This document shows positions 30,326 through 61,120 of a stretch of DNA of 64,000 bases, one piece after another. Source of the stretch: Sphaerisporangium rubeum (GTDB taxonomy: Bacteria; Actinomycetota; Actinomycetes; Streptosporangiales; Streptosporangiaceae); assembly GCF_014207705.1 (NCBI RefSeq), contig NZ_JACHIU010000001.1:6812501-6876500 (forward strand), written 5' to 3'. The position numbers and the translations under genes are program-made. The notes beneath the pieces were generated by a model. That model had not been told where the DNA came from, ran no database searches, and saw nothing but the letters and a program-made list of their open reading frames with translations. The first letter of the stretch is position 1. Every line of letters begins with the position of its first letter.

Positions 30326-33874
<3,549 letters not shown>

Positions 33875-34300: not shown

Positions 34301-35032
34301 ATGTCTGAGGTTCGATGGTGGCCCGCCACCCAAGGCGACGTGTTCAGCCTCCGCATCCGCGAGCTGTGGACCGAGCACCTCGGCCGCCGGCTCGACATCC
34401 TCATCGCCGGCTGCGGCCGGGGAGACACCATCGAGCTCGACCGCGTGGAGACCCGCCTCACCGGCATAGACGAGGACCTCCCCGAGGTCCGCGACGCCGT
34501 CCACTCACGTACCGACCTCGACGCGCGCTTCCTCGGCGACCTGCGCGACGCTCCCCTGCTCCCCCGCACCTTCGACGTGGTCCACGTGCCGTTCCTCCTG
34601 GAGCGCGTCCACCACGCCGAGCTCGTCCTGGACCGCATGGTCAACGCGCTGCGTCCCGGCGGCCTGCTCCTCATCCGCATGAGAGACCGCGACACCGCCT
34701 ACGGCTGCTACGACCGCCTGCTCCCCGGCTGGACCCGCCGCCTCCTGTGGCCCCACCTGGCCCCCGAAGACGCCGTCGGCCCCCTCCCCGCCGTCTACGA
34801 ACAGGTCGCCTCCCGGGAAGGCCTCCACTCCTACTGCCTGATGCGCGGCCTGATGATCGCCGAGGACTACAGCGCCACCAGCGGCTCCGCCTTGCGAGGC
34901 CCCCACGCACCCCTGACCAGAGCCGCCTGCCAGGCCCTCTCCAAACTCACCGCGGGCCGCCTCCCCACCACCCACGACGAGATCACCCTCGTCATCCGCA
35001 AACCCCAGAACCACTTCGCACGCCTCATCTGA
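34301..35032 (+). CDS. Class I SAM-dependent methyltransferase-like protein
   Basis: A 243-residue cytosolic protein. The SAM-binding motif I is LDILIAGCGRGDTIELD, followed by the acidic ribose-binding end (LTGIDEDL) and a post-I segment FDVVHVPFLLERVHHAE with an NALRPGGLLLIRM strand, as in methyltransferase_11/25 proteins. Substrate unknown. It lies 52 bp upstream of cysC and reads the same way, so it could modify the polysaccharide or a precursor made by the neighbouring cluster; that is inference from location. Confidence 0.75.
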   Translation: MSEVRWWPATQGDVFSLRIRELWTEHLGRRLDILIAGCGRGDTIELDRVETRLTGIDEDLPEVRDAVHSRTDLDARFLGDLRDAPLLPRTFDVVHVPFLLERVHHAELVLDRMVNALRPGGLLLIRMRDRDTAYGCYDRLLPGWTRRLLWPHLAPEDAVGPLPAVYEQVASREGLHSYCLMRGLMIAEDYSATSGSALRGPHAPLTRAACQALSKLTAGRLPTTHDEITLVIRKPQNHFARLI

Positions 35033-35084
35033 CCATCCCCGTCACCGCCGACCACCACGCACCAGGCCGCGATGCAAATATCCT

Positions 35085-36311
35085 GTGCCGGTGGCTGATC
35101 TGGAGTGGACTCCCGGCGAGCGGGAGCTCGCCGACCTCGAGTTGCTGTTGTCCGGTGTGTTCGCGCCGTTGACCGGGTTCATGGGGGCGGCGGACGTCGT
35201 CTCCGTGGAGGAGACCGGCAGGCTCGCGGACGGCACGCCGTGGCCGGATCCGATCACGCTCGAGGTGCCGGACGATCACCCGGTGACGGCGGGACAGGAG
35301 CTTGTGCTGCGTGACCCGGAAGGGGCCGGGGTCGCGACGCTCACCGTGACCGAACGCGACCATGGCCTGGTGGCCGGCCCCGTGACCTCTCTCGGAGCTC
35401 CGGAACACGGGCCGTTCGCGCGGCTGCGGCTCACGCCGGACCAGATCAAGGACCAGGCCGGTGCTCCCCTGCTGGCCGTCACCATGCGTGGCCCGCTGGA
35501 CGACCTGGACGAGATCACGGCCACCGCGCGCGAGCTGGACGCCACGATCCTGCTTCTCCCCCTCGCGTACGGCGAGAAGGGCCCCGCCGTCGTCCGCGCG
35601 GCGCTCAAGGCCCGCGACCGCCTCCCCGCCGGCACCCTTCTCGCCGCCGTCCCCCTGGCCCCCCGCGAGCCGGAGATCGACCTGGAGCTGCGCGAACACG
35701 TGGCGACCGCCTACGGCGCCGAGGAGCACATCGCCGCTCCGGAGCCCGTGACGCTCCCCGGCCCCCCGCACCGCCGCGGCGTCGTCGTCTTCTTCACCGG
35801 CCTCTCCGGCTCCGGCAAGTCCACCGTGGCCAGAGGCCTGCGCGACGCGCTCCTCGAAGACGGCACCCGCACCCTCTCCTACCTGGACGGCGACGAGGTC
35901 CGCCGACTCCTGTCGTCCGGACTCACGTTCACCAAGCAGGACCGCGACCTCAACATCCGCAGAATCGGCTTCGTCGCCTCGGAGGTCGCACGGCACGGCG
36001 GCCTCGCCATCTGCGCACCCATCGCGCCGTACGCCGCCACCCGCGCCGAGGTCCGCCACATGGTCGAAGGCGTAGGCGCGGACTTCCTGCTCGTCCACAT
36101 CTCCACCCCCCTGGAGGAGTGCGAACGCAGAGACCGCAAGGGGCTGTACGCCAAGGCCCGCGCCGGTCTGATCCCCGAGTTCACCGGCGTCTCCGACCCC
36201 TACGAGACGCCGGACGACGCCGACCTCGCCATCGACACCACCGGCGTGCCGGTCGGCCAGGCCGTCGACAGGGTGCTCGCGCTGCTGCGCTCGGGTGGCT
36301 GGCTCAGGTGA
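35085..36311 (+). CDS. cysC: APS kinase with N-terminal ATP-sulfurylase-like domain
   Basis: Phosphorylates adenylyl-sulfate (APS) to PAPS, the sulfate donor. The C-terminal APS kinase domain (about residues 225-400) is complete: P-loop FFTGLSGSGKSTVA, DGDEVRRLLSSGLTFTKQDRD, and the lid/IAPYAATRAEVR segment. Residues 1-220 resemble the PUA-like N-domain of ATP sulfurylase (LLLSGVFAPLTGFMG) and a shrunken catalytic domain in which the usual QxRN and HxGH sites are not visible. ATP sulfurylase activity is therefore unlikely to reside here and would come from CysDN at 56.6-58.8 kb. The 408-residue frame starts at GTG 35085 or 35091, with no clear ribosome site. Confidence 0.88.
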   Translation: MPVADLEWTPGERELADLELLLSGVFAPLTGFMGAADVVSVEETGRLADGTPWPDPITLEVPDDHPVTAGQELVLRDPEGAGVATLTVTERDHGLVAGPVTSLGAPEHGPFARLRLTPDQIKDQAGAPLLAVTMRGPLDDLDEITATARELDATILLLPLAYGEKGPAVVRAALKARDRLPAGTLLAAVPLAPREPEIDLELREHVATAYGAEEHIAAPEPVTLPGPPHRRGVVVFFTGLSGSGKSTVARGLRDALLEDGTRTLSYLDGDEVRRLLSSGLTFTKQDRDLNIRRIGFVASEVARHGGLAICAPIAPYAATRAEVRHMVEGVGADFLLVHISTPLEECERRDRKGLYAKARAGLIPEFTGVSDPYETPDDADLAIDTTGVPVGQAVDRVLALLRSGGWLR

Positions 36312-36366
36312 GCCCGTCCTGAGCCCTTCCGTGAGCCCTTCTGTGAGCCCTTCCGTGAGCACGGTC
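36308..36366. repeat. Tandem 12-bp repeat GTGAGCCCTTCC between convergent stops
   Basis: Five imperfect units (36308, 36320, 36331, 36343 and 36355) fill the whole gap between cysC and the glycosidase gene. The cysC stop falls in the first unit and the glycosidase stop in the last. Confidence 0.75.
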
Positions 36367-37444
36367 AGTCGCCGGGTACCGGGGTGGAGCTGAAGTAAGG
36401 AGCGCGGGCCAGTTCGGTGAAGGCGCGTGCGGTGTCCGGGGTGGTGTCGAAGCGGGTGTCGCCTCTCGGGGCTCTCGGGGAGTCGAAGTAGACGAGGGCC
36501 TTGATCTGGGGGTAGCCACGGATCTGGCGGCGGACGGTGTTGAAGAAGGTGGTCTTGAAGTGGGGGTCGTCCTGGCGGGGGAAGGCACCCCATTCGGCGA
36601 TCATGATGGGTTTGGCGGGGAAGCGGGCCTGGGTCCAGCGGTAGAAACCCGGCCATTTGGCGTGGTCGGGACGGATCTTGTCGATCAGGGTGGCGAAGTC
36701 GTCGACGCGGCGGTCGGCGTAGGGGTCGACGCCGATCCAGTCGACGACGTCGTCGCCGGGGTAGAGGCGTTCGAACCACGGCTTGGTGGCCCAGTTGGGG
36801 GCCCCCATGTAGGTCATGACGGTGACGGCGTTCCTGACGCCTTCGGAGCGTAGGCGCAGGACGACGTGGCGGTACATCGCGGCGTAGTCGTCGGCGGTCA
36901 TGCCGGAGCCCGGACGGGGCCGTACGTCGTTCTCGGGCTCGTGGTGGACGGTCAGGAAGAACCGGTGCGGCAGGTGGCGCTTGATCGAGTCGGCCAGGCG
37001 GTCGATGCGGTGGTCCACGGCGCCGGCGGCGATCTCGGCCCAGGTGTGGTGCACGGACGGCTTCCAGTTGACGAGCAGCAGGCGGGTGCGTGCGAGGCGG
37101 CGTTCCGCGCGGGTGGGGAAGGCGTCGCCGCCGCGGTGGTAGACGTGCACGATGTCGGCTTTGCGGCCCATGCGTTCCTCGGCGGCGGCCAGGGCCTTGG
37201 CCGGGGGAAGCCCGCCGAAGACGTCAGGGGCCACACCCCACCAGGCGCCGCAACTCGGGATGAGCTTGGCCGTGGCGGCGCAGCGAGGGGTGTCGCCGGG
37301 GATGCCGGCGGCGGCGACAGGAGGCCGGCCCGTGGTGTCCCGGCCGGGACGCACGGCCGCCATGGTGTAGACGAGCAGGCCGCAGGCGGCGAGGATGCCG
37401 GCGCCGAAAACCCATATTCCCGTCACTTTTCGCAAGGCGGCCAA
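36365..37444 (-). CDS. Membrane-anchored GH26-like glycoside hydrolase
   Basis: Predicted cell-surface glycosidase of up to 359 residues. An N-terminal transmembrane/signal-anchor segment (VFGAGILAACGLLVYTMA) precedes a (beta/alpha)8-type domain. Probable acid/base glutamate is in LTVHHEPENDV and probable nucleophile in PIMIAEWGAFPRQ, the spacing seen in clan GH-A enzymes such as GH26 mannanases/lichenases. Cluster context suggests trimming or release of the exopolysaccharide. The start is uncertain: TTG 37444, TTG 37435 and GTG 37426 are all in frame near an AAGGGGG site. Confidence 0.72.
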   Translation of the reverse strand: MAALRKVTGIWVFGAGILAACGLLVYTMAAVRPGRDTTGRPPVAAAGIPGDTPRCAATAKLIPSCGAWWGVAPDVFGGLPPAKALAAAEERMGRKADIVHVYHRGGDAFPTRAERRLARTRLLLVNWKPSVHHTWAEIAAGAVDHRIDRLADSIKRHLPHRFFLTVHHEPENDVRPRPGSGMTADDYAAMYRHVVLRLRSEGVRNAVTVMTYMGAPNWATKPWFERLYPGDDVVDWIGVDPYADRRVDDFATLIDKIRPDHAKWPGFYRWTQARFPAKPIMIAEWGAFPRQDDPHFKTTFFNTVRRQIRGYPQIKALVYFDSPRAPRGDTRFDTTPDTARAFTELARAPYFSSTPVPGD

Positions 37445-37942: not shown

Positions 37943-39127
37943 ATGAGCCAGCCGGCCACCGCCAGCCCCAGGGCCGAGATCGGCCCCATGCTGCTGCGGC
38001 GGCGCGCGGCCGTCACCGGGTGCCTGATCGCCGGGTTGTGCGCCGGCGGGGTCGCGCTGGCCGCCACGCCGCCGACGTACGTCGCGACGGCCGAGGTGCT
38101 CGTGTCCCCGACCGGGGTGCAGGATCAGACCAACCCGGTCACGCCACGTCAGCGCGAGCCGCTCAACCTCGACACCGAGGCACATGTCGCGCGTTCCGCG
38201 GTGGTGGCGGCCCGTGCGGCCCGCATGTTGAAGATCGACGACCCGACGGCGTTACGCGAGCGCGTCACCGTCACCGTGCCGCCGAACTCGGCCGTTCTCA
38301 CCGTTTCGTACGCCTCAGGCGACCCGGTGAGCGCCGCCGCAGGCGCGCAGGCCTTCGCCAAGGCCTACCTCAGCCAGCGCGCCGCCGCCGCCAACCAGGC
38401 AGTCGCCGCTCAGCTCAAGGTGCTCGCCGCCAAGCTCCGCGAGGCAGGCACGCAGTTGTCCGCCACCGTCACCGGCCTCTCCCGCCTGGCCGCCGGCTCG
38501 GCCGAGCGCGTCATCGCCGTGCAGCGGCAGAGCGTCCTGAACCGCCAGATCCTCACCCTCACCGCCAAGCAGGACGCGCTGAAGACCATCGCCGTCACCC
38601 CCGGCCAGGTCATCACCGACGCGCGTCCCCCCGCCGCGCCGGCCGCACCCCGGCCCCCGCTGTACTTCGGCAGCGGCCTGTTCCTCGGCCTGCTCGCCGG
38701 CGCCGGGGTCGCCATGGTCCGCGACCGCTTCGACACGAGGCTGCGCACCGCCGCCGACGTGGAGCGGCTCACCGGCCTGCCGGTGCTGTGCGAAGGTGAG
38801 AACGCGCGTGAGCTGCGCGAGCTCGCCATGGCCGTCGCCACCCATCTGCGTGACGGCGGCGAGCTCCTCGTCCGCAGCGTCACCCCCGGCACCGACCCCG
38901 AGCCCATCGCCGACGACCTCAGAGTGGCCCTCACCGGGCTCGCTCCGATCTGGGTCCGCACCGACCGTACGGCGCGGGCCGACGCCGCCGTCCTGCTCGT
39001 GGAGAGCCGCGCCGCGCGCGCGACCCAGCTCGCGCACGCCGTACGCCAGCTCCGCCGCACCGACACCGCCGCGCTCGGCGTGATCCTCCTGCCTTCCCCG
39101 GCCGCGCTGCCCCGTGGTGAGTCGTGA
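37943..39127 (+). CDS. Wzz-like polysaccharide co-polymerase with degenerate kinase domain
   Basis: Inner-membrane chain-length regulator of 394 residues. The first transmembrane segment is at about 25-42 (VTGCLIAGLCAGGVALA), an extracytoplasmic helical region covers about 43-230, and the second is at about 237-255 before DRFDTRLRTAADVERLTG. The cytoplasmic tail (about 255-394) resembles a bacterial tyrosine-kinase domain in its late strands (AAVLLVESRAARATQLAH, then TAALGVILLPSP) but has no Walker A loop and no Tyr cluster. It is therefore probably a pseudokinase. It heads a run of genes with 4-bp overlaps. A TTA codon lies at 38252-38254. Confidence 0.8.
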   Translation: MSQPATASPRAEIGPMLLRRRAAVTGCLIAGLCAGGVALAATPPTYVATAEVLVSPTGVQDQTNPVTPRQREPLNLDTEAHVARSAVVAARAARMLKIDDPTALRERVTVTVPPNSAVLTVSYASGDPVSAAAGAQAFAKAYLSQRAAAANQAVAAQLKVLAAKLREAGTQLSATVTGLSRLAAGSAERVIAVQRQSVLNRQILTLTAKQDALKTIAVTPGQVITDARPPAAPAAPRPPLYFGSGLFLGLLAGAGVAMVRDRFDTRLRTAADVERLTGLPVLCEGENARELRELAMAVATHLRDGGELLVRSVTPGTDPEPIADDLRVALTGLAPIWVRTDRTARADAAVLLVESRAARATQLAHAVRQLRRTDTAALGVILLPSPAALPRGES

Positions 39128-40452
39128 CCGCCGTCACCCGTCCCTTCGCCGCGCCGCGTGCCGCGGCGGCGTCCACCCGGCCGGGTCGCGTGGCGTGGCC
39201 GGTCGCGGCGCTGCTCGTGGGGTACCCGGTGTGGTGGGCCCTCGGGTTCGGCGGGCTGGCGGTCGTGGTGCTCGCGGTGCCGATGGGGCTGGTCCTGTGG
39301 CGGCGGCGGCCGGTCGTCGTCCCCAAGGGGATGGGGCTGTGGCTGCTGCTGGTCGCGGGGTACGCCGTCAGCGCCGCGATGCTGGCGGAGACTCCGCCAG
39401 GCACGTACGGGGAGCTCGGCACGGGACGGATCGCGGGCTACCTGATGCGGCTCGTCCTCTATGTGTCGCTCGTCGTGCTCGTGCTGTACCTGGCGAACCT
39501 GACCGAGGCCGAGCTGCCCCAGCGCGCGCTCGTGCGCATGATGGGTGCGCTGTTCCTCACCACCGTGGCGGGGGGACTGCTCGGGGTGCTCGCGCCACGG
39601 TTCGAGTTCACCTCGCCGGTCGAGATGGTGCTCCCCGAGTGGGTCAGCGGGAACCCGTTCGTCCGGAACCTGATTCACCCGACCGCCGCGCAGACGCAGC
39701 ACGTGCTGGGACACGCCGCGCCGCGGCCCGAGGCGCCGTTCGAGTGGGCCAACGCCTGGGGTGGCAACTGCTCGGTGCTGCTGATCTGGTTCGTGGTGGG
39801 CTGGTGGGTGTACGGCGGACCGCGACGGCGGGTGCTGTGCGTCGTCGTGGTCGCGGCGGCGGCCGTGCCGGTGGTGTACTCCCTGAACCGCGGGCTGTGG
39901 ATCGGGCTCGCGGTCGCGATGGTCCACCTGATGGTCAGGAGCCGTGCGAGGCTCGCCGCCGCGGCGGTGCCGGTGGCGGTCGCGGCGATGCTGGCGGGGC
40001 CGCTCGGGTCCATCGTGGCGCAGCGGCTCGACAGCCCGCACAGCAACCAGATCAGAGCGTTCACCGTGTCGGCCACGGTCGCGGCGGCGGCGCACTCGCC
40101 GGTCATCGGGTACGGCAACACGCGCAACGCGTACGGCAACTACCGCAGCGTCACGACCGGCAAGACGTCCTGGTGTCATGAGTGCGGCCATCCTCCGCTC
40201 GGCAGCGACGGTCAGCTGTGGCTGCTGCTGATCACCCAGGGGTTCACCGGCGCGCTGCTGTACGTCGCGTTCTTCGCCGGGACGATCCGGCGGTTCCGCC
40301 ACGACCGCACGCCGATCGGTCAGGCGGGGACGCTCGTGATGATCCTCGCGCTGCTCTACATGTTCGTCTACGACGGCCTGATCACCGCGCTGACCCTGTA
40401 CCTCATCTCCTTCGCCATCCTCTGGCGCAACGCGGGAGCACGACACCCATGA
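39124..40452 (+). CDS. O-antigen ligase/polymerase-like membrane protein
   Basis: A 442-residue integral membrane protein with about 10-12 hydrophobic segments and one large extracytoplasmic loop (about residues 150-225) before the region PVVYSLNRGLWIGLAV, the pattern of Wzy/WaaL (O-antigen_lig) proteins. Later residues GYGNTRNAYGNYRS and the segment GQLWLLLITQGFTGALLY are also typical. It would polymerise repeat units or ligate chains outside the membrane. GTG start overlaps the previous stop by 4 bp. Confidence 0.82.
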   Translation: MTAVTRPFAAPRAAAASTRPGRVAWPVAALLVGYPVWWALGFGGLAVVVLAVPMGLVLWRRRPVVVPKGMGLWLLLVAGYAVSAAMLAETPPGTYGELGTGRIAGYLMRLVLYVSLVVLVLYLANLTEAELPQRALVRMMGALFLTTVAGGLLGVLAPRFEFTSPVEMVLPEWVSGNPFVRNLIHPTAAQTQHVLGHAAPRPEAPFEWANAWGGNCSVLLIWFVVGWWVYGGPRRRVLCVVVVAAAAVPVVYSLNRGLWIGLAVAMVHLMVRSRARLAAAAVPVAVAAMLAGPLGSIVAQRLDSPHSNQIRAFTVSATVAAAAHSPVIGYGNTRNAYGNYRSVTTGKTSWCHECGHPPLGSDGQLWLLLITQGFTGALLYVAFFAGTIRRFRHDRTPIGQAGTLVMILALLYMFVYDGLITALTLYLISFAILWRNAGARHP

Positions 40453-41357
40453 GCGACTTCCAGGCGCGGCTGCGCCACCTCGACGAGGTGACGGCCCTGC
40501 TCTACCCGGCGTCGGCCGGGCCCGGCCGGGGAGCGTACGCGGTCGTCCCCTCCCGCCTGGCGCCGCGGCGGCTGGTGCCGCGGTCCCGGTGGCTGCCGGG
40601 ACGGCGGCGGCTGCCGCGCGGGCCCGGCACCATCGAGGGACACCTCGGTGAGGTGTTCGGCAGGCCCGTCCGGGTCGTGACATACGTACGGCCGGCGCGG
40701 CGGGCCAACCGCAAACCGGTGCTGGCGGTGTTCGGGCCGGACGGTGAGCGGCTCGCGTTCGTCAAGGTCGGCCACACCGAGCGGGTCCGTGCGCTGGTGC
40801 GGCACGAGAGCACGACCCTCGCCATGCTGGCCGCCGCACCGCCGCGCACCGTGGTCGCGCCGTCCGTGCTGTACCACGGCCTGTGGCGCGACATGGACGT
40901 ACTGGCCCTCTCACCGCTGCCGGTCACCCGTGGCCGGGTGCGGCCCGCGCTGCTGGCCCGCGCCGCCGAGGAGATCGCACGGCTGCCGGCCGGCGCCGCG
41001 TTCAGCTGGCACGGCGACTTCGCACCGTGGAACATGGCCGCCTCGGCGGACGGACGACTGCTGGTGTGGGACTGGGAACGCTTCGGCACCGGCGTTCCCC
41101 TGGGCTTCGACGCGCTGCACCACTTCTTCCAGCGCGCGCTGCGCCGCATGCCACCTCGGGTCGCCGCCGAGGCGTGCGTGGCCCAGGCCCCGCGCACACT
41201 GGAGTCCTTCGCGGTCGCCGCGTCCCCGGCCCGGCGCACCGCCGTCCACTACCTGGCCACCCTCGCGACCCGCTACGAAACCGACGGCCACCAGCCACTC
41301 GGCCCACCGTCGCAGTGGCTCACCCCGGTGGCCGACGCACAGGAGGCGTTGTGGTGA
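40449..41357 (+). CDS. APH-fold phosphotransferase (sugar/aminoglycoside kinase-like)
   Basis: A 302-residue cytosolic protein with the aminoglycoside-phosphotransferase catalytic loop SWHGDFAPWNMA (catalytic Asp and Asn) and the metal-binding segment LLVWDWERFG. It is encoded inside the polysaccharide operon with 4-bp overlap, so it probably phosphorylates a sugar or glycan intermediate rather than a drug. Similar kinases sit in other exopolysaccharide clusters. Substrate unknown. Confidence 0.75.
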   Translation: MSDFQARLRHLDEVTALLYPASAGPGRGAYAVVPSRLAPRRLVPRSRWLPGRRRLPRGPGTIEGHLGEVFGRPVRVVTYVRPARRANRKPVLAVFGPDGERLAFVKVGHTERVRALVRHESTTLAMLAAAPPRTVVAPSVLYHGLWRDMDVLALSPLPVTRGRVRPALLARAAEEIARLPAGAAFSWHGDFAPWNMAASADGRLLVWDWERFGTGVPLGFDALHHFFQRALRRMPPRVAAEACVAQAPRTLESFAVAASPARRTAVHYLATLATRYETDGHQPLGPPSQWLTPVADAQEALW

Positions 41358-45425: not shown

Positions 45426-45440
45426 CAAACCCTCCAAGGA

Positions 45441-52667: not shown

Positions 52668-53630
52668 CTACACGGTGGACTGGGCCAGGCGGTACCGGGA
52701 CGGCGGGAGGCCGTACCGGTCGACGAAGGCCTGGCGGAGGGTTTCCGCCGTACCGAAGCCGCAGCGCGACGCGATGGTGGCCATGGGGAGAGACGTGGAC
52801 GCCAGCAGGTGCGCGGCGGCTTCGGTGCGAGCCCGGCGGACGTAGCGGCCGGGAGGCAGGCCGAGGTGTTTGAGGAACAGGCGGGTCAGGTGGCGTTCGC
52901 TGACGCCGGCGGCGGCGGCCAAGGTGGCGGTGGTCAGGTCCGCGTCCAGGTTGGCGGCGACGTGGTCGACCACTCGTCTCACCAGGTCGTCGCTCAGCGG
53001 TGGGGCCTCGGTGAACATGCTCATCTGGGCCTGGTTGCCGGGACGCTGCATGTACGTCACCAGTTCGCGGGCCACCTCGCGGGCCAGCGCGGGGCCGTTG
53101 TCCTCCTCGATGAAGGCGAGGGTGAGGTCGATGGCGCTGGTGACGCCGGCGGCCGTGGCGATGTGGCCGTCCCTGATGAAGATCGGGTCGGCGTCCACCT
53201 GGATCGCCGGATGGCACTCGGCCAGCGTGCGCGCGTACTTCCAGTGCGTCGTGACCCGCCGTCCGTCGAGCAGCCCCGCCGCCGCCAGCACCGCCGCTCC
53301 CGTGCAGACCGACGCCACCCGCCGGCTCTCCCGCGCCAGCCGCCTGACATGCCCCACGACGACCTTGCTGTCCGCCGCGTCCTCGTAGCCGATGCCCCCG
53401 GAGACGATCAGCGTGTCCAACGGCCCGGTGACCTTCTCCAGCGCCTGCTGGCCCTGCAGGGTCAGCCCCGTGCCGCAGACGATGGGCCGCGCCGACGGCG
53501 TGGCGAGCGCCACGTCGTACAGGTGCTCTCTCGCGTAGAAGTTCGCCACGATCAACGGTGACGTGACACACGCGATGTCCAGCAACTCCGCCGCGTGGTA
53601 CCCGACCACAAGCACGCGTCGTACCGTCAT
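52668..53630 (-). CDS. GlxA-type AraC regulator with DJ-1/PfpI domain
   Basis: A 320-residue regulator. The N-terminal DJ-1/PfpI (amidase-like) domain spans about residues 5-175, with VSGGIGYEDAADS and the nucleophile-elbow cysteine in VASVCTGAAVLAAAG. The C-terminal AraC-type DNA-binding domain spans about 215-315, around GVSERHLTRLFLKHLG and CGFGTAETLRQAFVDRYG. It is divergent from a membrane-protein gene 99 bp away, the likely target. Confidence 0.9.
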   Translation of the reverse strand: MTVRRVLVVGYHAAELLDIACVTSPLIVANFYAREHLYDVALATPSARPIVCGTGLTLQGQQALEKVTGPLDTLIVSGGIGYEDAADSKVVVGHVRRLARESRRVASVCTGAAVLAAAGLLDGRRVTTHWKYARTLAECHPAIQVDADPIFIRDGHIATAAGVTSAIDLTLAFIEEDNGPALAREVARELVTYMQRPGNQAQMSMFTEAPPLSDDLVRRVVDHVAANLDADLTTATLAAAAGVSERHLTRLFLKHLGLPPGRYVRRARTEAAAHLLASTSLPMATIASRCGFGTAETLRQAFVDRYGLPPSRYRLAQSTV

Positions 53631-53729
53631 GCCCTTGACCGTATGTCAGAAAGACCGGGATCCCAAGTATCCAGACCTACTCAGACATCGTATCTGGCCG
53701 CCGCGTCCCGTGCCGCGCACATTGGACCC

Positions 53730-54137
53730 ATGACCGACACGACGCTCCCCCCTCGATCCCGCCACTGGGGCCGTTTCGCGCTCCACTACGTCGAGATGAT
53801 CATCGCCATGTTCGTCGGCATGTTCGTCCTCGACCTGGCCTGGTCCGCGGTAGGCGTAGACCTGTCGTACGCGACCGACCCCGAACTGGCCTACCTGCTG
53901 ATGGCCTTCGACATGTCGGTGGGGATGGCCGCCTGGATGCGTATCCGCGGCCACGCCTGGCTCCCCACCCTGGAGATGTGCGGCGCCATGTTCGTCCCCA
54001 TCGTGCCGCTGTTCCCCTTACTGTGGCTGAACGCCATCGACGGCATGACCCTGATGATCGTCGCTCACGTCGTCATGTTCCCCCTGATGCTCGCCGCCAT
54101 GCTCTGGCGCCGCGACGAGTACACCCACCACCACTGA
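53730..54137 (+). CDS. Four-TM membrane protein, unknown
   Basis: A 135-residue membrane protein with hydrophobic segments at about 20-42, 53-70, 78-97 and 103-126, a Met-rich character and a terminal His triplet. Resembles small actinobacterial membrane proteins found opposite GlxA-type regulators. Function unknown. It contains a TTA codon at 54018-54020. Confidence 0.75.
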   Translation: MTDTTLPPRSRHWGRFALHYVEMIIAMFVGMFVLDLAWSAVGVDLSYATDPELAYLLMAFDMSVGMAAWMRIRGHAWLPTLEMCGAMFVPIVPLFPLLWLNAIDGMTLMIVAHVVMFPLMLAAMLWRRDEYTHHH

Positions 54138-54161
54138 CCGGAACCCATGAACCCGGCAGGC

Positions 54162-54252
54162 CCGGGGGTGTGGGGGTGTCCCCCACACAAGGCAGCCCTT
54201 GCGCCTCACGCGCGAAGCGCCTCATCGCAAGGACCATGATCACGGCGCGGTC
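54162..54252. repeat. ~90-bp structured repeat, copy A
   Basis: Imperfect direct copy of 56423-56510. It begins with a hairpin TGTGGGGG-TGT-CCCCCACA, then CCTTGCG...CGCAAGG enclosing a GCGC-GAA-GCGC hairpin, and ends CACGGCGCGGTC. It starts 25 bp after the membrane-protein stop. Confidence 0.8.
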
Positions 54253-54292
54253 CCTGTCCAGAGTCAGCCTCATCGAGAAATGAGAACAGACA

Positions 54293-54706
54293 CTAACGGC
54301 CTCGCAAGTGATCGAGGAGTCCCCTCCAAGCATCAGAGGTGAAGACAATGGCGGGAACACCGCGACTTTTACTATCTCGAAGAGCCCGCCTAGCACCGCT
54401 CAAGACGGCCACCTCGACGCAGTTGCTTCCATCGTCACCAGAGTAACTGGATCTCCGCCACCGCGTTCCCGGCCTCTGGTACTCCTCGTCCATCCGCACC
54501 TCTCCCCATCGCCAAGGACCTTTCAGGAAGCCGAGGAACGTGGCCCAAATCTCGGAGCTGCACACGACGGCCGGTCGACTGAGATCCTTGCTGTCCCGTA
54601 CGGCCCGGTTCCCACCTGTGACGTTCGCCACTTCTACGCAGTTGCTGCCATCATGACCAGAAAAGCTTGATCGGCGCCATCCTGACTTCATAAGATCCTG
54701 AGTCAC
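54293..54706 (-). CDS. Double DUF397 protein (fused tandem pair)
   Basis: A 137-residue protein containing two complete DUF397 domains (about residues 8-62 and 80-135). Each has the signature RRSS(F/Y)SG-DGSNCVEVA...RA-RDSK. DUF397 proteins are usually single-domain (~65 residues) partners of WhiJ-type regulators. An internal ATG (codon 72, at 54493) still has GGGGAGAGGTG before it. Two adjacent genes thus seem to have fused by stop-codon loss, and the second domain may also be translated alone. GTG start has AGGAG upstream. Confidence 0.88.
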   Translation of the reverse strand: MTQDLMKSGWRRSSFSGHDGSNCVEVANVTGGNRAVRDSKDLSRPAVVCSSEIWATFLGFLKGPWRWGEVRMDEEYQRPGTRWRRSSYSGDDGSNCVEVAVLSGARRALRDSKSRGVPAIVFTSDAWRGLLDHLRGR

Positions 54707-54719
54707 CGTTCGCTCCTGA

Positions 54720-54917
54720 CTACTTCAGGTGATCGAGAAAGGCCGTCCACGCACCGGATGAGAAAACGACAGTGGTTTTGGCGGGATCCTTACTGTCCCG
54801 GACTGCTCGACGCCGTCCGGTTAGGATCGCTACTTCGACACAGTTCCCCCCATCGTCACCAGTGAAGCTGGATCTACGCCATTGCGCTGCAGTGAGCTCT
54901 TCGTTCACCCGGTCCAT
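54720..54917 (-). CDS. DUF397 protein
   Basis: A 65-residue single DUF397 protein (RRSSFTGDDGGNCVEVAILT). Its start overlaps the regulator stop by 13 bp and it precedes the double DUF397 gene by 13 bp. The known family role is as small partner, probably antagonist, of the adjacent XRE regulator. Confidence 0.9.
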   Translation of the reverse strand: MDRVNEELTAAQWRRSSFTGDDGGNCVEVAILTGRRRAVRDSKDPAKTTVVFSSGAWTAFLDHLK

Positions 54918-55741
54918 TTCCGTATCTTCTCCTTGATCATGTCGCTCGACTCATGCCGGGCAAGTGCGTCCACTCGGATCAAGTCGTACCGCATCGATAG
55001 AAAACTCACCTCATCGGACTGAACGCTCACCGGATCCTCTGTACTCTGCGATGCGATGTAAGCCGCAGGGGAAGCACCCTTAGGCATGTCCGCGATGGCG
55101 AAACCACCTAGCAACCCAAGCACGCTCCGGGCCTTGTGCGGTAGCACGTGCAGGGACACATGGGAGTTTCCTCCCATTTCGAGAAGGTACTCGAACTGCG
55201 CCTTCATGATTTCTGGATCCGCGATGGGTCTATTAAGGACACCCTCGTCGATGATGACCCATAGCAGTGGCGGTATCGATCGATGGAGAATCTTCTGCCG
55301 TTCCATTCTCGCTGCTACACGTTCCTCCGCCTGCTCAGGCGTGACCCCAGGCCTACGACTCAGAATGGCGCGCGCGTAGTCCTCCGTCTGCATCAGCCCG
55401 GGAACCATCAAGGGTTCCCACACCCGCAGGGCCTCTGCCTCCTGCTCATACTCCAGCCATGGCCGGAACCATGGCGGCAACTGGGCCGCCGCGCGGTTGA
55501 GGCGGTCGAGTAGGCCGGTGAGGGTGGATCCGAGGTTCAGTGCATCGTCCATGCGGCGTGCGAGGTCGGGGGTGGGGCCGCGGTGGCCGTTCTCGATCAT
55601 GCTGAGGTGGCTGATGGACAGGTGGATCGTTTCGCACAGCCGGCGTTGGGTGACACCTTGAGATAGGCGGAATTTTCGTAATTCTGTCCCGAATTGCAGA
55701 CGCGGCGATATGGATGTATCCGGCTCCAAAGGGACAGTCAT
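54905..55741 (-). CDS. WhiJ-like XRE regulator with DUF5753 domain
   Basis: A 278-residue transcription factor. The N-terminal XRE helix-turn-helix is at about residues 15-70 (LRKFRLSQGVTQRRLCETI...SHLSMIENGHRGP), and a DUF5753 ligand/interaction domain follows at about 90-270 (VPGLMQTEDYARAIL, HVSLHVLPHKA). ATG 55741 has AGGAG 9 bp upstream. With the DUF397 genes and the divergent ATPase it forms a WhiJ/AbaA-like module, which in Streptomyces influences development and antibiotic production. Confidence 0.92.
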   Translation of the reverse strand: MTVPLEPDTSISPRLQFGTELRKFRLSQGVTQRRLCETIHLSISHLSMIENGHRGPTPDLARRMDDALNLGSTLTGLLDRLNRAAAQLPPWFRPWLEYEQEAEALRVWEPLMVPGLMQTEDYARAILSRRPGVTPEQAEERVAARMERQKILHRSIPPLLWVIIDEGVLNRPIADPEIMKAQFEYLLEMGGNSHVSLHVLPHKARSVLGLLGGFAIADMPKGASPAAYIASQSTEDPVSVQSDEVSFLSMRYDLIRVDALARHESSDMIKEKIRKWTG

Positions 55742-55932
55742 CAACCGGCTCCTCTCTCGCGTTCGGGGTCACCTCACCTGCACATCATCAGGCAGTTCTC
55801 CTGTCGTCGCGACCGGGTCCGCACAACTGTGAATGAAATGCGGACCCAGAAAGCCGTTCTCGATCCCGGGGTCTTTGCGACCGTGTGATGGCCACGACCG
55901 AGCCGTCCGCAAATCCCCGGGAAAGGCATTCC

Positions 55933-56379
55933 ATGACTCCGGACACGCATCGCGAACTGACGCTACCCGCTACCGCCGACTCGGCCTCTCGTGCCAGAGA
56001 GGAGGTTCGTGACTGGCTCGGGGAGAGCCACCCGGCGTACGAGCAGGCTCGGCTGGCGGTCTCGGAGTTGGTGACGAACGCGATCCGGCATCCGCGTCAG
56101 GACCCGGCGCAGCCGCCGGGACGGGTGAACCTCCGTCTGGTCGCCACAACCGACCGCGTCCGCATCGAGGTGACCGACCAGGGACGTACCGGCGTCGCGT
56201 CGCGGCCCTGCGCTCAGGAGGCGTCGCCGCTGGCGGAAGGCGGCCGGGGGCTGCTCATCGTCGATCTGCTCTCCGAGGGCCGCTGGGACACCTACGCCAA
56301 CCCGGACGGCCCTGGTCGCACGGTGTGGTGTGAGATCTCCGTCCAGCCGGTCGTGACCATCCGTGCCACGGGTGAATGA
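55933..56379 (+). CDS. Anti-sigma-factor-like ATP-binding protein (HATPase_c_2)
   Basis: A 148-residue GHKL ATPase-fold protein like SpoIIAB/RsbW. N box region ARLAVSELVTNAIRHP and G1/G2 segments VTDQGRTG and EGGRGLLIVDLLSE. It may act as anti-sigma or kinase partner within the WhiJ-like module, from which it is divergent. ATG 55933 has GAAAGG 8 bp upstream; the frame is open from 55885/55888, which would add 15-16 residues. Confidence 0.85.
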   Translation: MTPDTHRELTLPATADSASRAREEVRDWLGESHPAYEQARLAVSELVTNAIRHPRQDPAQPPGRVNLRLVATTDRVRIEVTDQGRTGVASRPCAQEASPLAEGGRGLLIVDLLSEGRWDTYANPDGPGRTVWCEISVQPVVTIRATGE

Positions 56380-56578: not shown

Positions 56579-57841
56579 TCAGTGGGCTTCGACGATCATG
56601 CCGGCGGCGACGGTGGTGTTGGTGGATTCGTCGATGAGGATGAAGCCGCCGGTGAGGCGGTTTCTGGCGTAGTCGTCGACGAACAGCGGCTGGGTGACTC
56701 TCAGGGAGACGCGGCCGATTTCGTTCAGGGACAGGGTGGTGGCGGATTCGTCGCGGTGGAGGGTGTTGACGTCCAGGCGGTAGTGGAGGTCGCGGACCAT
56801 CGCTCTGGCGGTGCGGGTGGTGTGTTTGATGGTCAGCTTGGATCTCGGGCCGAGTTTGGGGGTGTCGGTCATCCAGCAGATCATGGCCTGGAGGTCCTGC
56901 GCGGAGCGGGGCTGGTTGTTGGGGCGGCAGATCATGTCGCCTCTGGAGATGTCGATGTCGTCCTCCAGGCGGAGGGTGACGGACATGGGGGGGAAGGCTT
57001 CCTCGCGGGGGCCGTCGAAAGTGTCGATGGCGGCGATGCGGGTGGTGAGGCCGCTCGGGAGGTGCATGACCTCGTCGCCGGGCTTGAGCACGCCGCCTGC
57101 CACCTGGCCGGCGTAGCCGCGGTAGTCGTGGAAGGCGGGGTCGGTCGCGCGCTGGGGACGGATGACGTACTGCACGGGGAAGCGGACGTCCACGAGGTTG
57201 CGGTCGGAGGCGATGTGGACGTTCTCCAGGTGGTGGAGCAGGGAGGTGCCCTGGTACCACGGCATGTTCTCCGAGCGGGAGACGACGTTGTCGCCGTGGA
57301 GCGCGGAGATGGGGATGAAGGTCAGGTCGCCGATGTTGAGTTTGGCGGCGAACTGGGTGAACTCCTCGCGGATCTCCTCGAAGCGCTCGTAGGAGTAGTC
57401 GACGAGGTCCATCTTGTTGACGGCCAGCACGAGGTGGGGGACACGCAGGAGGCTCGTCAGGAAGGCGTGGCGGCGGGACTGCTCCAGGACTCCCTTGCGC
57501 GCGTCGATGAGGACGATGGCGAGGTCGGCGGTGGAGGCGCCGGTGACCATGTTGCGGGTGTACTGGATGTGGCCGGGGGTGTCGGCGATGATGAACTTGC
57601 GCTTGGGGGTGGCGAAGTAGCGGTACGCCACGTCGATGGTGATGCCCTGCTCGCGCTCGGCGCGCAGGCCGTCGGTGAGCAGCGACAGGTCGGTGTACTC
57701 GGTGCCGCGGTCGCGGCTGGTGCGCTCGACGGCTTCGAGCTGGTCCTCGAAGATCGCCTTGGAGTCGAACAGCAGGCGGCCGATGAGCGTGGACTTGCCG
57801 TCGTCGACCGAGCCCGCGGTGGCGAAACGCAGGATGTCCAT
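56579..57841 (-). CDS. cysN: Sulfate adenylyltransferase subunit 1 (GTPase)
   Basis: GTP-driven regulatory subunit of ATP sulfurylase; with CysD it makes APS from ATP and sulfate. The 420-residue protein has P-loop AGSVDDGKST (10-18), DTPGH, NKMD and two EF-Tu-like beta-barrel domains. It has no C-terminal APS kinase extension, unlike NodQ/mycobacterial CysNC, so the separate cysC at 35 kb is needed to make PAPS. Its ATG overlaps the cysD stop by 1 bp (TGATG). Confidence 0.95.
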   Translation of the reverse strand: MDILRFATAGSVDDGKSTLIGRLLFDSKAIFEDQLEAVERTSRDRGTEYTDLSLLTDGLRAEREQGITIDVAYRYFATPKRKFIIADTPGHIQYTRNMVTGASTADLAIVLIDARKGVLEQSRRHAFLTSLLRVPHLVLAVNKMDLVDYSYERFEEIREEFTQFAAKLNIGDLTFIPISALHGDNVVSRSENMPWYQGTSLLHHLENVHIASDRNLVDVRFPVQYVIRPQRATDPAFHDYRGYAGQVAGGVLKPGDEVMHLPSGLTTRIAAIDTFDGPREEAFPPMSVTLRLEDDIDISRGDMICRPNNQPRSAQDLQAMICWMTDTPKLGPRSKLTIKHTTRTARAMVRDLHYRLDVNTLHRDESATTLSLNEIGRVSLRVTQPLFVDDYARNRLTGGFILIDESTNTTVAAGMIVEAH

Positions 57842-58755
57842 CAGAAGTAGCCTTCCTTCTTGCGGTCCTCCATCGCGGCCTCCGACGTGCGGTCGTCGGC
57901 CCGGGTGGCGCCACGCTCGGTGATGCGGGTGGCGGCGATCTCGGCGATGATGTCCTCGACGGTCGCGGCGGTCGACTCGACCGCTCCCGTGCAGGTCATG
58001 TCGCCTACGGTGCGGTAACGCACGACGGCCTCGTAGACGGGCTCGTCGTCGCCGCGGTGGGTCACCGGGTCGTCCGGCAGCAGCATGCCGTCCCGCTCGA
58101 ACACCTTGCGGGTGTGCGAGTAGTAGATGGACGGGATCTCGATGCCTTCGCGGCGGATGTAGTCCCAGACGTCCAGCTCGGTCCAGTTGGACAGCGGGAA
58201 GACCCGGATGTGCTCGCCCTTGCGGATGCGCGCGTTGTAGAGGTTCCACAGCTCGGGCCGCTGGTTCTTGGGGTCCCACTGGCCGAACTCGTCGCGGAAC
58301 GAGAAGACCCGCTCCTTGGCGCGGGCCTTCTCCTCGTCGCGGCGCGCGCCGCCGAAGACGGCGTCGAACTCGTTGTCCTCGATGGCGTCGAGCAGCGTGG
58401 TGGTCTGCAGGCGGTTGCGGCTGGCCCGGCGGCCGGTCTGCTCGGTGACCCGGCCCGCGTCGATGGACTCCTGGACGGAGGCGACGACGAGACGCGCGCC
58501 GAGCTCGGCGACCCTGCGGTCACGGAACTCGATGACCTCGGGGAAATTGTGGCCGGTGTCCACGTGCATCAGGGGGAACGGGATGGGGGCTGGCCAGAAC
58601 GCCTTCTCCGCGATGCGGAGCATGACGATGGAGTCCTTTCCGCCGGAGAAGAGCAGACAGGGACGTTCGAACTCGGCCGCGACCTCTCGCATGATGTGGA
58701 TCGCCTCGGCTTCGAGTACGTCCAATTGCGACGTGGTGTAGTCGCTCTGCAGCAT
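57841..58755 (-). CDS. cysD: Sulfate adenylyltransferase subunit 2
   Basis: Catalytic ATP sulfurylase subunit, 304 residues, PP-loop fold with SGGKDS at 37-42 and the GGARRDEEKARAKERVFSFR region. It transfers AMP from ATP to sulfate. No PAPS/APS reductase or sulfite reductase gene follows, which points toward supplying PAPS rather than cysteine. It lies 39 bp after cysQ, in the run headed by the sugar transferase. Confidence 0.96.
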   Translation of the reverse strand: MLQSDYTTSQLDVLEAEAIHIMREVAAEFERPCLLFSGGKDSIVMLRIAEKAFWPAPIPFPLMHVDTGHNFPEVIEFRDRRVAELGARLVVASVQESIDAGRVTEQTGRRASRNRLQTTTLLDAIEDNEFDAVFGGARRDEEKARAKERVFSFRDEFGQWDPKNQRPELWNLYNARIRKGEHIRVFPLSNWTELDVWDYIRREGIEIPSIYYSHTRKVFERDGMLLPDDPVTHRGDDEPVYEAVVRYRTVGDMTCTGAVESTAATVEDIIAEIAATRITERGATRADDRTSEAAMEDRKKEGYF

Positions 58756-58794: not shown

Positions 58795-59634
58795 CTAGCG
58801 GTGCACGTCTCGGATGCCGGCGAGCAGCGTCGGCGCCAGATCCGGTAGGGAGACCAGGATATCCGGCAGCGACGGGATGCTTTGGTTGTACTCCAGCGCC
58901 GAGCCGTCGATCCGGCTCGCGAAGGCCCCGGCCGCGAGCGCGACGGTGACCGGTGCGGCCGAGTCCCACTCGTACTGCCCCCCCGCGTGGATGTATGCCT
59001 CCACCTCGCCGGTGAGCACGGCAGCGATCTTGGCGCCGGCCGAGCCCATGGGGACCAGGTCGGCTCCGATCATGGCGGCGAGCTTGCGGACGAACTCCGG
59101 CGGACGGGTGCGGCTGACCGCGATGCGGACCTGGCCGTCGCGGGGAACAGGGAGCACGGGAGGCTCGGCGGTGGTGAGGGTGACACCTTGGGCCGGCAAG
59201 GCGATGGCGCCTGCGACGAGCGTGCCGTGGCCGGCGGGGGCCGGGCCCGCGCCGTTTCCCGCCGGTCCGGTGGCTGAGGTCTCCCCCGGCTTCCTGGGGT
59301 CGCGTCGCCACAGCGCGACGTGGACGGCCCAGTCGGCGCGGCCCTCCTCGCCGAACTCGCGGGTGCCGTCCAGCGGGTCGATGATCCACACGCGGTCGGC
59401 GGCCTGGCGGCGGGGGTCGTGGCGCTCCTCGCCTGTGCCTTCCTCCGACAGCACCAGGTCGCTCGGCCGCAGACGGGACAGGGACTCGGTGAGGTAGGCG
59501 TGGGACTCGCGGTCCCCGGCGTCGCGGAGCGCCTTGGGGTCGGCGAAGCCGTCCCTTTCGCGCAGGGCCAGCAGCCGCGCACCCGCCTCGGTGGCCAGGT
59601 CTCCCGCGAGCGCGTGGTCGTCGCGTATCGTCAC
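58795..59634 (-). CDS. cysQ: 3'(2'),5'-bisphosphate nucleotidase (PAP phosphatase)
   Basis: Inositol-monophosphatase-fold enzyme, 279 residues, with the metal site WIIDPLDGTREF, the upstream Glu pair in LSEEGTGEERHD and the late motif EWDSAAPVTVALAAGA. It hydrolyses PAP (and PAPS), the inhibitory by-product of sulfotransferases. A Gly/Ala/Pro-rich insert (ETSATGPAGNGAGPAPAGHG) lies mid-protein. GTG 59634 has AGGAAGGA about 5 bp upstream. It stands between the initiating sugar transferase (40 bp) and cysD (39 bp). Confidence 0.92.
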   Translation of the reverse strand: MTIRDDHALAGDLATEAGARLLALRERDGFADPKALRDAGDRESHAYLTESLSRLRPSDLVLSEEGTGEERHDPRRQAADRVWIIDPLDGTREFGEEGRADWAVHVALWRRDPRKPGETSATGPAGNGAGPAPAGHGTLVAGAIALPAQGVTLTTAEPPVLPVPRDGQVRIAVSRTRPPEFVRKLAAMIGADLVPMGSAGAKIAAVLTGEVEAYIHAGGQYEWDSAAPVTVALAAGAFASRIDGSALEYNQSIPSLPDILVSLPDLAPTLLAGIRDVHR

Positions 59635-59674
59635 GATGTCCTTCCTCGTACGTCTGCCGCTGATGTGCCGGGGG

Positions 59675-61120
59675 TCAGTAGGCTCCCCAGCCGCGCGCCA
59701 CGGCGGACCAGGTCTTCCAGAGGATCTGGAGATCCAAGGTGAGAGACCAGTTCTCGACATAACGCAGGTCCAACCGTACCGATTCCTCCCAGGAAAGATC
59801 ACACCTGCCGTTCACCTGCCACAAGCCGGTCATTCCCGGACGGACCACCAGCCGGCGCCGCACGTCGTCGCCGTAGCAGGCGACCTCCTCGGGGAGCGGC
59901 GGCCGGGGGCCGACGAGGGACATGTCGCCGGTGAGGACGTTGACGAGCTGGGGGAGCTCGTCGAGGGAGAAGCGGCGTAACCAGGCGCCGAGCGGGGTGA
60001 CCCGCGGGTCGTCCCTGATCTTGAAAAGGACGCCGTCCAGGTCGCTGACCAGGTCGACGCGGTGCCGCTCGGCGTCCACGCGCATGGTGCGGAGCTTGAG
60101 GATCGTGAACTCGGCGCCGTCCCTGCCGACGCGGGTCTGGCGGAACAGGGCCGGGCCGGGGCTGGTGGCGCGGACCGCCACGGCCAGTGCCACGAGAACA
60201 GGTGCGAGGACGGCGAGGGCTGCCGCGGCGCCGGTGCGGTCGAAGAGGTTCTTGAGCAGGCGGCGCACGCCGGAGAGCTCGGGGTGCTCGACGTGGAGCA
60301 GCGGCAGCCCGGCGACCGGCCGGATCGTGGTGCGCGGGCCGGCGACCTCCATGAGGGCCGGCGCCACCACCAGGTCGGTGTGTGTGCGCTCCAGGCGCCA
60401 CGCCAGGCGGCGCAGCGCGGTGCCGTCGAGCTCGGGACAGGCGAGCACGGCGACGGTGTCGGCCCTGGCCTGGACCACCGCCAGGGGGACGTCGCTGAAG
60501 TCGCCGAGCACCGGCACCCCTCGCACCTCCTCGGCGGCGCCGTGCCGGGGGAGGCAGGCGCCGACGACGTGCATGCCGTGGTACGGCTCCCTGCGGAACT
60601 TCCCGACGAGGTCGGCGACCGACGGCCCGTGGCCCACCGCCACGACCCTGCGCATGCACCGGCCCGCGGCCCGCAGCCGGTGCAGCCGCCGCCGCAGGCC
60701 GTACCGGCAGGTCAGGGTGAGCACCGTCATCAGCGGCAGTGCCACCACGACGTAGCCCCTGGCGAGCTCGGTCTTGGTGACGTACGCGGCGATCGCCACC
60801 CCTGCCGTCAGCAGGAACCCGCACTGGCTGATCCTGCGGAACTCCTCCGGCCCCACACCGACCAGCCGTGCCTCGTAGGCCCGGTTGAGCCCCACCATGC
60901 CGGCCCACACCAGCGGCAGCACCAGGCTGAGCACGACATACGGCACGACGTACGGCGTGATGTCGCCGAAGCGCACGGCGAAGGCCGCCGCGCCGGCGAG
61001 GAAGCCGCAACCGAGGTCGGCCGCCACCGCGGCCAACCGGTACTTGCGCACCCAGCCAGGCGGCGCGGGCCGGCCCCGATGGAGGCTCGGCATCCGCTGC
61101 GTAGCCGATCTGATACTCAC
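59675..61120 (-). CDS. Polyprenyl glycosylphosphotransferase (initiating sugar transferase)
   Basis: WbaP/CpsE/GumD-type enzyme of about 481 residues that starts polysaccharide synthesis by moving a sugar-1-phosphate to undecaprenyl phosphate. Four N-terminal transmembrane segments are followed by a CoA-binding-like Rossmann region (about 150-270), then the re-entrant hydrophobic helix (AAALAVLAPVLVALAVAV) and the Bac_transf catalytic domain (FRQTRVGRDGAEFTILKLRTM, SLDELPQLVNVLTGDMSLVGPRPP). The start is uncertain: GTG 61120 or ATG 61093, neither with a clear ribosome site. A TTA codon sits in AWLRRFS (complement 59978-59980). Confidence 0.93.
   Translation of the reverse strand: MSIRSATQRMPSLHRGRPAPPGWVRKYRLAAVAADLGCGFLAGAAAFAVRFGDITPYVVPYVVLSLVLPLVWAGMVGLNRAYEARLVGVGPEEFRRISQCGFLLTAGVAIAAYVTKTELARGYVVVALPLMTVLTLTCRYGLRRRLHRLRAAGRCMRRVVAVGHGPSVADLVGKFRREPYHGMHVVGACLPRHGAAEEVRGVPVLGDFSDVPLAVVQARADTVAVLACPELDGTALRRLAWRLERTHTDLVVAPALMEVAGPRTTIRPVAGLPLLHVEHPELSGVRRLLKNLFDRTGAAAALAVLAPVLVALAVAVRATSPGPALFRQTRVGRDGAEFTILKLRTMRVDAERHRVDLVSDLDGVLFKIRDDPRVTPLGAWLRRFSLDELPQLVNVLTGDMSLVGPRPPLPEEVACYGDDVRRRLVVRPGMTGLWQVNGRCDLSWEESVRLDLRYVENWSLTLDLQILWKTWSAVARGWGAY

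Follow-up and report, generated by a model that had tools for sequence, protein, structure and literature searches.

Does a stretch of the Sphaerisporangium rubeum genome that carries polysaccharide assembly genes, sulfotransferases and sulfate-activating enzymes direct the synthesis of a sulfated extracellular polysaccharide, and does it supply its own 3′-phosphoadenosine 5′-phosphosulfate (PAPS)? The window, by which we mean the whole 64,000-nucleotide stretch analysed, comprises positions 6812501-6876500 of the single-contig, 7,504,604-base genome. A reading of its sequence (the original prediction) had proposed both such a product and a PAPS cycle belonging to the locus. Sulfotransferases and PAPS synthesis genes do share one polysaccharide locus, and we consider with a probability of about 0.75 that this is a Wzx/Wzy-dependent locus producing a sulfated extracellular polysaccharide. 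The proposal stands as regards a conserved locus uniting Wzx/Wzy assembly, sulfotransferases and PAPS enzymes, which is moreover orthologous to the wps-1 cluster (wpsA-K) of Actinoplanes missouriensis; the PAPS cycle of its own does not stand.

The annotation is based on Pfam at its curated cut-offs, NCBIfam and profile comparison with the PDB. From these matches and from conservation, all the genes named in the original prediction were recovered in place; it had left unmentioned the methyltransferase at 34301 and had overlooked the APH-like kinase. The genes are as follows, where APS is adenosine 5′-phosphosulfate, PAP is 3′-phosphoadenosine 5′-phosphate, and fractions give presence in 80 related loci.

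34301..35032, plus strand: S-adenosylmethionine-dependent methyltransferase (MT) beside CysC; Pfam Methyltransf_23 2.5e-8; 56/80
35085..36311, plus strand: CysC, an APS kinase whose N-terminal sulfurylase-like region is shortened; PF01583 2.1e-54, PUA_2 1.4e-19, best PDB match 3cr8; 62/80
36365..37444, minus strand: GH26-like glycosidase; PDB 2bv9 (GH26) 1.3e-12; 73/80
37943..39127, plus strand: Wzz-like chain-length protein, WpsK relative; NCBIfam EpsF 2.4e-14 (below cut-off); 75/80
39124..40452, plus strand: Wzy-like polymerase, O-antigen-ligase-like, WpsJ relative; Wzy_C 1e-5 (below cut-off); 79/80
40449..41357, plus strand: APH-like kinase related to WpsI and perhaps acting on glycans; AlphaFold model, top fold match WbdD; 80/80
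40744-42273 (open reading frame; protein from ~41416 to 42273), plus strand: sulfotransferase ST1, heparan-sulfate-type, WpsH relative; Sulfotransfer_1 2.9e-12; 80/80
42305..43723, plus strand: Wzx-like flippase, WpsG relative; MatE 1.2e-4, Polysacc_synt 4.7e-4 (below cut-offs); 75/80
43720..44619, plus strand: sulfotransferase ST2; Sulfotransfer_3 2.7e-12; 62/80
44526..45563, minus strand: WecG/TagA/CpsF glycosyltransferase, WpsC relative; PF03808 9.5e-55; 60/80
45606..46664 (start probably ~46526, by eye), minus strand: GT2 glycosyltransferase, WpsA relative; PF00535 1.6e-14; 59/80
46517..47503, minus strand: sulfotransferase ST3, WpsB relative; Sulfotransfer_3 4.5e-17; 59/80
47591..56379: non-core insert with SIR2-like, GT4, Ddl, AraC-type regulator, XRE and ATPase genes; SIR2, GT4 and Ddl 0/80
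56579..57841, minus strand: CysN, GTPase subunit of sulfate adenylyltransferase; GTP_EFTU 5.3e-44; at least 39/80
57841..58755, minus strand: CysD; PF01507 2.5e-45; sole CysD found by genome search; at least 37/80
58795..59634, minus strand: CysQ, PAP phosphatase; best solved relative 5djf 1.8e-60, a PAP phosphatase; at least 36/80
59675..61093, minus strand: initiating polyprenyl-phosphate sugar-phosphate transferase (PGT); Bac_transf 3.4e-65; at least 37/80

On the minus strand PGT, CysQ, CysD and CysN thus follow one another. The PGT coding region is hidden inside a longer frame, and encodes a clear Bac_transf protein.

A PGT, glycosyltransferases, Wzx, Wzy and Wzz are all found in the one locus. 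The calls for the last three lie below the library cut-offs, and rest on conservation and on orthology to WpsG, WpsJ and WpsK. The predicted GH26-like glycosidase is supported by its alignment with a solved GH26 enzyme. The protein is just under the Pfam cut-off; in the alignment with 2bv9 glutamates match in the HHE and AE motifs, which we take to be the catalytic residues of GH26, and by eye there is an N-terminal membrane anchor. The APH-like kinase has an AlphaFold model of mean pLDDT 86.3, for which the top Foldseek match is the WbdD kinase-methyltransferase (TM 0.35, E 2.5e-5), followed by fructosamine, lanthipeptide-synthetase and aminoglycoside kinases. The query TM scores are low, 0.27-0.50 among the 50 matches listed, and a profile search against the PDB gave a chance match only. 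WbdD presumably caps O-antigen chains, and as a lead it is plausible that the protein is a sugar or glycan kinase.

All three sulfotransferases, predicted at 41416, 43720 and 46517, match Pfam families above the curated cut-offs. The ST1 profile matches 3rnl at 1e-29 and a heparan sulfate 3-O-sulfotransferase at 1.4e-22. In ST2 (AlphaFold model pLDDT 73.5) the residues of both sulfotransferase motifs, which we take to bind PAPS, are conserved. ST3 and the ST2 profile gave weak matches only, to the solved CurM or tyrosine sulfotransferases, and the single ST2 sequence matched no solved sulfotransferase in the PDB. From such family assignments we infer the activity of each enzyme, and the presence of sulfate on the polymer.

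The genes co-occur in other actinobacterial genomes, a check that the original prediction had proposed. Using an ST1 alignment we confirmed at least 520 loci, and in the best 80 of these the window proteins were placed by tblastn. The flanks extend 10 kb at most and many stretches stop before CysN or pth, so that the counts for CysN, CysD, PGT, CysQ and pth (at least 15/80) are lower bounds; mfd is present in 53/80. All 15 core genes, from CysC to PGT, occur together in 33 of the 80 loci, in Nonomuraea, Planotetraspora, Streptosporangium, Planobispora, Microtetraspora, Herbidospora, Acrocarpospora, Sinosporangium and Planomonospora. The usual order is mfd, MT, CysC, GH26, Wzz, Wzy, APH, ST1, flippase, ST2, WecG, GT2, ST3, CysN, CysD, CysQ, PGT, pth, L25, prs. 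Of eight genomes of the same genus, compared over the stretch from CysC through CysN, seven have all 15 core genes; this sample is not independent of the 80 loci, since some strains occur in both. The locus is not confined to sporangium-forming genera; it is also present in Nonomuraea, Microbispora, Micromonospora, Glycomyces and Geodermatophilus.

The ~9 kb between ST3 and CysN in the window encode SIR2-like, GT4 (48445-49629), D-Ala-D-Ala-ligase-like (Ddl) and AraC-type regulatory proteins. Matches to SIR2, GT4 and Ddl were found in none of the 80 related loci and, between CysC and CysN, in none of the eight same-genus genomes, which rules them out as parts of the system. Three glycosyltransferases had been predicted and three are present, but the GT4 gene belongs to this insert and lies outside the conserved core. 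The XRE and ATPase genes were found again in four of the eight same-genus genomes. A similar pair lies near the same site in genomes G001, G002, G003, G005 and G010 of our collection.

A survey of 130 genomes of the family (profile thresholds E ≤1e-40 for CysC and ≤1e-90 for ST1) found CysC in 129 and ST1 in 84. The two genes lie within 15 kb of each other, at a median of 6.8 kb, in all 70 genomes where they share a contig, 15 of these being assemblies of nine contigs or fewer. In the other 14 of the 84 genomes carrying both they are on separate contigs, and in the three of these that belong to genus g31 the two genes may truly be apart. CysC and CysD were on one contig in 16 of 25 family genomes, always within ~40 kb, and on different contigs in the other nine. 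Nine class-level genomes match both families; CysC lies within ~2 kb of CysD in six (G029, G031, G036, G037, G038, G040) and ~3.4 kb from a CysD fragment in G035, the two being on different contigs in G034 and G039. In the family of A. missouriensis CysC is within ~8 kb of ST1 in nine of ten genomes, hand-picked from 250 for low contig number. A count of 228 of the 250 genomes at 1e-60 mixes matches of ~1e-130 and ~1e-75, the latter perhaps paralogues, and was not used as a locus count. One genome of this family, G382, has the entire fused locus, with polysaccharide and sulfate-activation genes together, but lacks ST2.

The A. missouriensis cluster wps-1, with its neighbour AMIS_7390, was published in June 2026 and was predicted by its authors to yield a sulfated polysaccharide (PMC13390465). 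In genome G463, taken as A. missouriensis, ST1 is located at 785 kb in the wps-1 gene order and with fitting protein lengths. Identities between window and wps-1 proteins are 57% for ST1/WpsH, 54% for ST3/WpsB, 51% for GT2/WpsA, 50% for WecG/WpsC, 41% for Wzy/WpsJ and for flippase/WpsG, 34% for Wzz/WpsK and 33% for the kinase-like protein and WpsI; CysC and AMIS_7390 are 62% identical over the kinase part. CysC, Wzz, Wzy, kinase-like protein, ST1, Wzx and WecG, then ST3 and GT2, occur in matching order. By contrast GT2 and ST3 are swapped, ST2 replaces WpsF and GH26 is placed elsewhere, while wps-1 itself has WpsD, WpsE and WpsF. Neither ST2 nor the methyltransferase at 34301 matched anything at the A. 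missouriensis locus at 1e-5. Judged by order and identity, the locus is orthologous to wps-1.

The window GH26 protein is nearest not to WpsE (27%) but to the product of a gene beyond AMIS_7390 (43%). This second A. missouriensis GH26 gene (L189 6405-7721, G463 792405-793721) is not among the deletions described in the available text of PMC13390465.

The cluster wps-1 is required for normal sporangia, which are distorted on its deletion, and deletion of wpsA, wpsC, wpsF-K or AMIS_7390 reduced spore release to 10^2-10^6 compared with 10^8 (PMC13390465). Loss of wpsH, the relative of ST1, mimicked the phenotype of the Wzx/Wzy genes (PMC13390465). By analogy, a role in sporangium formation might be transferred to the Sphaerisporangium locus.

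The window had been predicted to lack PAPS/APS reductase and sulfite reductase, and a tblastn search of it with the genome's own CysH and sulfite reductase gave chance matches only (best E 1.4). Both enzymes, for which the original prediction had proposed a check of the rest of the genome, were found at 2.69 Mb, where the genome's one CysH and sulfite reductase (Sir) form a separate cluster that by eye also holds a chelatase-like gene. A genome profile search revealed no CysD beyond the window copy, and there is no genomic match to the ATP sulfurylase family PF01747; a second ATP sulfurylase feeding assimilation is thus ruled out. The window CysDN must therefore serve assimilation and sulfation alike, which is why the PAPS cycle cannot be the locus's own. 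The original prediction had held that it would be undermined if the organism's only cysH/sir genes depended on these cysDN genes while the sulfotransferases acted on a small molecule; the first half of this is what was found.

CysH has CC and CxxC motifs in 20/20 loci; these come from 19 genomes, of which one has two copies and among which are Sphaerisporangium and A. missouriensis. One outgroup CysH is the same. The closest solved relative is 7lhr (8.4e-80), which we take to be the APS reductase of M. tuberculosis. On these grounds CysH is of the APS-reductase type, and because of this the step committed to sulfation would be CysC, not CysDN. In C. glutamicum CysH works as an APS reductase and APS kinase is absent (PMC1266029), and a review of M. 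tuberculosis assigns APS kinase to the sulfation branch (PMC3141025). Genome G030 provides a natural control. It has CysN, CysD and an APS-type CysH adjacent, with no Sulfotransfer_3 protein and no real APS kinase, just a match of 4e-4. The rule is not strict, since CysC occurs without a Sulfotransfer_3 match in G037 and G038. In two genomes of the same genus (G002:C10 and G004:C14) a second CysD lies ~8-9 kb from a second CysH, and could form a separate assimilation set.

The 408-amino-acid CysC begins with a PUA-like part, followed by a short middle region and a complete kinase domain whose P-loop is conserved. It is the one strong APS kinase match in the genome, the other match being 1.2e-4. 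The alignment with 3cr8, entitled sulfurylase/kinase in its PDB record and presumably the two-domain APS kinase of T. denitrificans, is in two pieces and skips ~95 residues of the sulfurylase part (query 221-226 spans chain 267-363). In both proteins an APS kinase would be fused to a sulfurylase-like part, but this part is even shorter in Sphaerisporangium, where the lack of a PF01747 match speaks against a full sulfurylase/kinase. The T. denitrificans two-domain enzyme is reported to lack sulfurylase activity (PMC13213808). AMIS_7390 retains a partial PF01747 match (1.4e-11, 3-118 of 212), and decay of the sulfurylase part therefore appears to differ by lineage.

We note that AMIS_7390 is the sole APS kinase found in G463. 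The phenotype of its deletion was called unexpected by the authors, who assign to this family of enzymes the formation of APS on the way to sulfur amino acids (PMC13390465). In the available main text of that paper the terms 'PAPS' and 'cysD' have zero occurrences, and AMIS_7390 is not linked to PAPS supply. Macroscopic growth of the mutants was unchanged on YBNM and HAT agar (PMC13390465), but since YBNM is rich this says nothing about their ability to assimilate sulfur. The sporangium defect would be better explained if WpsH and WpsB were starved of PAPS.

The chief alternative is that CysDN and CysQ are ordinary assimilation genes that merely neighbour the polysaccharide genes in the region between pth and mfd, with no functional connection. 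Being the sole copy found, the window CysDN must supply CysH/Sir at 2.69 Mb. In A. missouriensis wps-1 is at 0.79 Mb, and PGT, CysQ, CysD and CysN are beside pth at 8.12 Mb, ~1.4 Mb away if the chromosome is circular, whereas they share one locus in Sphaerisporangium. In G223, of the same family as A. missouriensis, cysQDN is again beside pth and apart from the polysaccharide locus, with no PGT between. On the other hand the linkage of CysC with ST1 holds even where cysDN is unlinked, CysQ would have little evident role in assimilation if CysH uses APS, a sugar-transferase gene adjoins cysQ also in A. missouriensis, G400, G404 and G382, and the fused arrangement is known from two families. We therefore regard a mere neighbourhood as unlikely.

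The PGT beside cysQ bears on wps-1 in another way. As described, wps-1 has no PGT, one being placed in wps-2 (PMC13390465); we count four PGTs in G463 and two in the Sphaerisporangium genome. Since the fused locus of the Streptosporangiaceae and of G382 clusters both sets of genes, the PGT that adjoins cysQDN at 8.12 Mb is the natural candidate, and is probably the missing initiating transferase of wps-1.

A sulfated polysaccharide could then be made as follows, each step being assigned by family membership. PGT would put the first sugar onto undecaprenyl phosphate, and the WecG/TagA and GT2 enzymes would lengthen the chain. Before or around flipping, ST1, ST2 and ST3 would use PAPS to sulfate the unit, and the APH-like kinase may phosphorylate it. 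The flippase would export the unit, Wzy and Wzz would polymerise it, and the GH26 enzyme would trim the product. CysDN would produce APS for the entire cell, of which APS reductase (encoded elsewhere) would consume part for cysteine; CysC would convert the remaining APS to PAPS for sulfation, and CysQ would remove PAP.

The product might instead be a cell-wall-bound glycopolymer, similar to a teichuronic acid, and not a free or matrix polysaccharide. The WecG/TagA-type transferase and the weak O-antigen-ligase match of the Wzy-like protein would fit this, but Wzz, Wzy, the flippase and GH26 suit a secreted polymer, as does the sporangium phenotype of wps-1. Among the Pfam matches of the core genes, to which this search was confined, no wall-attachment family occurs, and we find this alternative quite doubtful. 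It is improbable that the polysaccharide is unsulfated, with a lipid, protein or small molecule as acceptor for the three sulfotransferases. Acceptors are not readable from sequence and the structural matches of ST2 and ST3 are weak or lacking, but the ST1 profile matches sulfotransferases of heparan sulfate, deletion of wpsH, the relative of ST1, has the effect described above, and ST1 and ST2 overlap or abut the kinase and flippase genes in conserved order.

Several observations weigh against a locus for a sulfated polysaccharide. The genome has at least 12 Sulfotransfer_3 matches, most of them outside the locus, so that PAPS is not exclusive to it, and we know of no polymer chemistry for the Sphaerisporangium strain. 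The same-genus genome G004 keeps CysC, GH26, Wzz, APH, ST3 and CysN-D-Q-PGT, with no match to Wzy, ST1, flippase, ST2, WecG or GT2 in the stretch from CysC to CysN (C42, L060), of which ~6 kb between ST3 and CysN were unread. A close ST1 at 1e-90 is missing from 45 of the 129 family genomes with CysC, G004 among them. No CysC was found within 10 kb or before the end of the stretch in loci of Micromonospora (four), Glycomyces (three), Modestobacter, Geodermatophilus and Streptosporangiales. Loss of wpsB, the relative of ST3, left sporangia normally shaped, with only ~tenfold lower spore release (PMC13390465). AMIS_7390 was not activated along with wps-1 on day 3 (PMC13390465), and CysC is therefore not tightly co-regulated in A. 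missouriensis. The available text of that paper reports no polymer chemistry for A. missouriensis.

Sulfated polysaccharides of bacteria are still described as limited to cyanobacteria (PMC13390465, PMC8205485), despite established sulfated capsules in marine Gram-negative species. Loci with PAPS genes and an established polymer structure are known in Cobetia (PMC11766843) and Vibrio (PMC11641403). The capsule locus of Cobetia marina KMM 1449 also has a sulfotransferase with cysN/C, cysD and cysQ, but is Gram-negative, with an ABC-transporter capsule, a fused CysNC and other assembly genes (PMC11766843). Vibrio sp. KMM 8419 differs in having second copies of cysNDC and ABC export, and its authors obtained no similar public locus by BLAST (PMC11641403). 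Closer in assembly is the xss cluster for synechan, a Wzx/Wzy polysaccharide cluster with two sulfotransferases and a sulfated product, but it is cyanobacterial (PMC8205485), and the terms 'PAPS', 'phosphoadenosine', 'APS kinase' and 'cysC' are absent from its text. In a literature search that covered few subscription papers, the locus in Streptosporangiaceae and its PAPS link were undescribed. The remark that such products have rarely been reported from actinomycetes can still be made, except that the orthologous wps-1 now carries the same prediction. What would be new here is the link of PAPS to the AMIS_7390 phenotype, together with the candidate initiating transferase for wps-1.

A broader proposal, to which we give even odds, is that sulfated extracellular glycans are old and widespread in actinomycetes. 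One ancestral pth-mfd island, with PGT, CysD/CysN/CysC, heparan-sulfate-type sulfotransfer and CysQ, would be whole in Streptosporangiaceae and some Micromonosporaceae, and split in A. missouriensis into cooperating parts, wps-1 with AMIS_7390 and PGT-cysQDN. The AMIS_7390 phenotype would then be that of PAPS loss, and sulfation would be a condition for sporangia. The conservation of the locus across many actinomycete genera and the existing set of knockouts make the question directly testable. The predictions are that CysC limits sulfation, that the PGT beside cysQDN starts the A. missouriensis chain, and the reason why the AMIS_7390 mutant fails. Soil bacteria might also be a source of heparan-type sulfotransferases.

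Two genomes, G016 and G017 (L036, L037), have CysC, mfd, APH-like, GT2, CysN, CysD, CysQ and pth clustered with no close ST1, which looks like a reduced form of the island. A single genome, G021 (C118 and C136), has six ST1-like matches that form two tandem groups. The locus in the window is bordered by housekeeping genes, mazG, a SurA-like gene and mfd (28633-33874) at one end and pth, L25 and prs (61180-63961) at the other, and these border genes are the same in relatives whose stretches extend that far.

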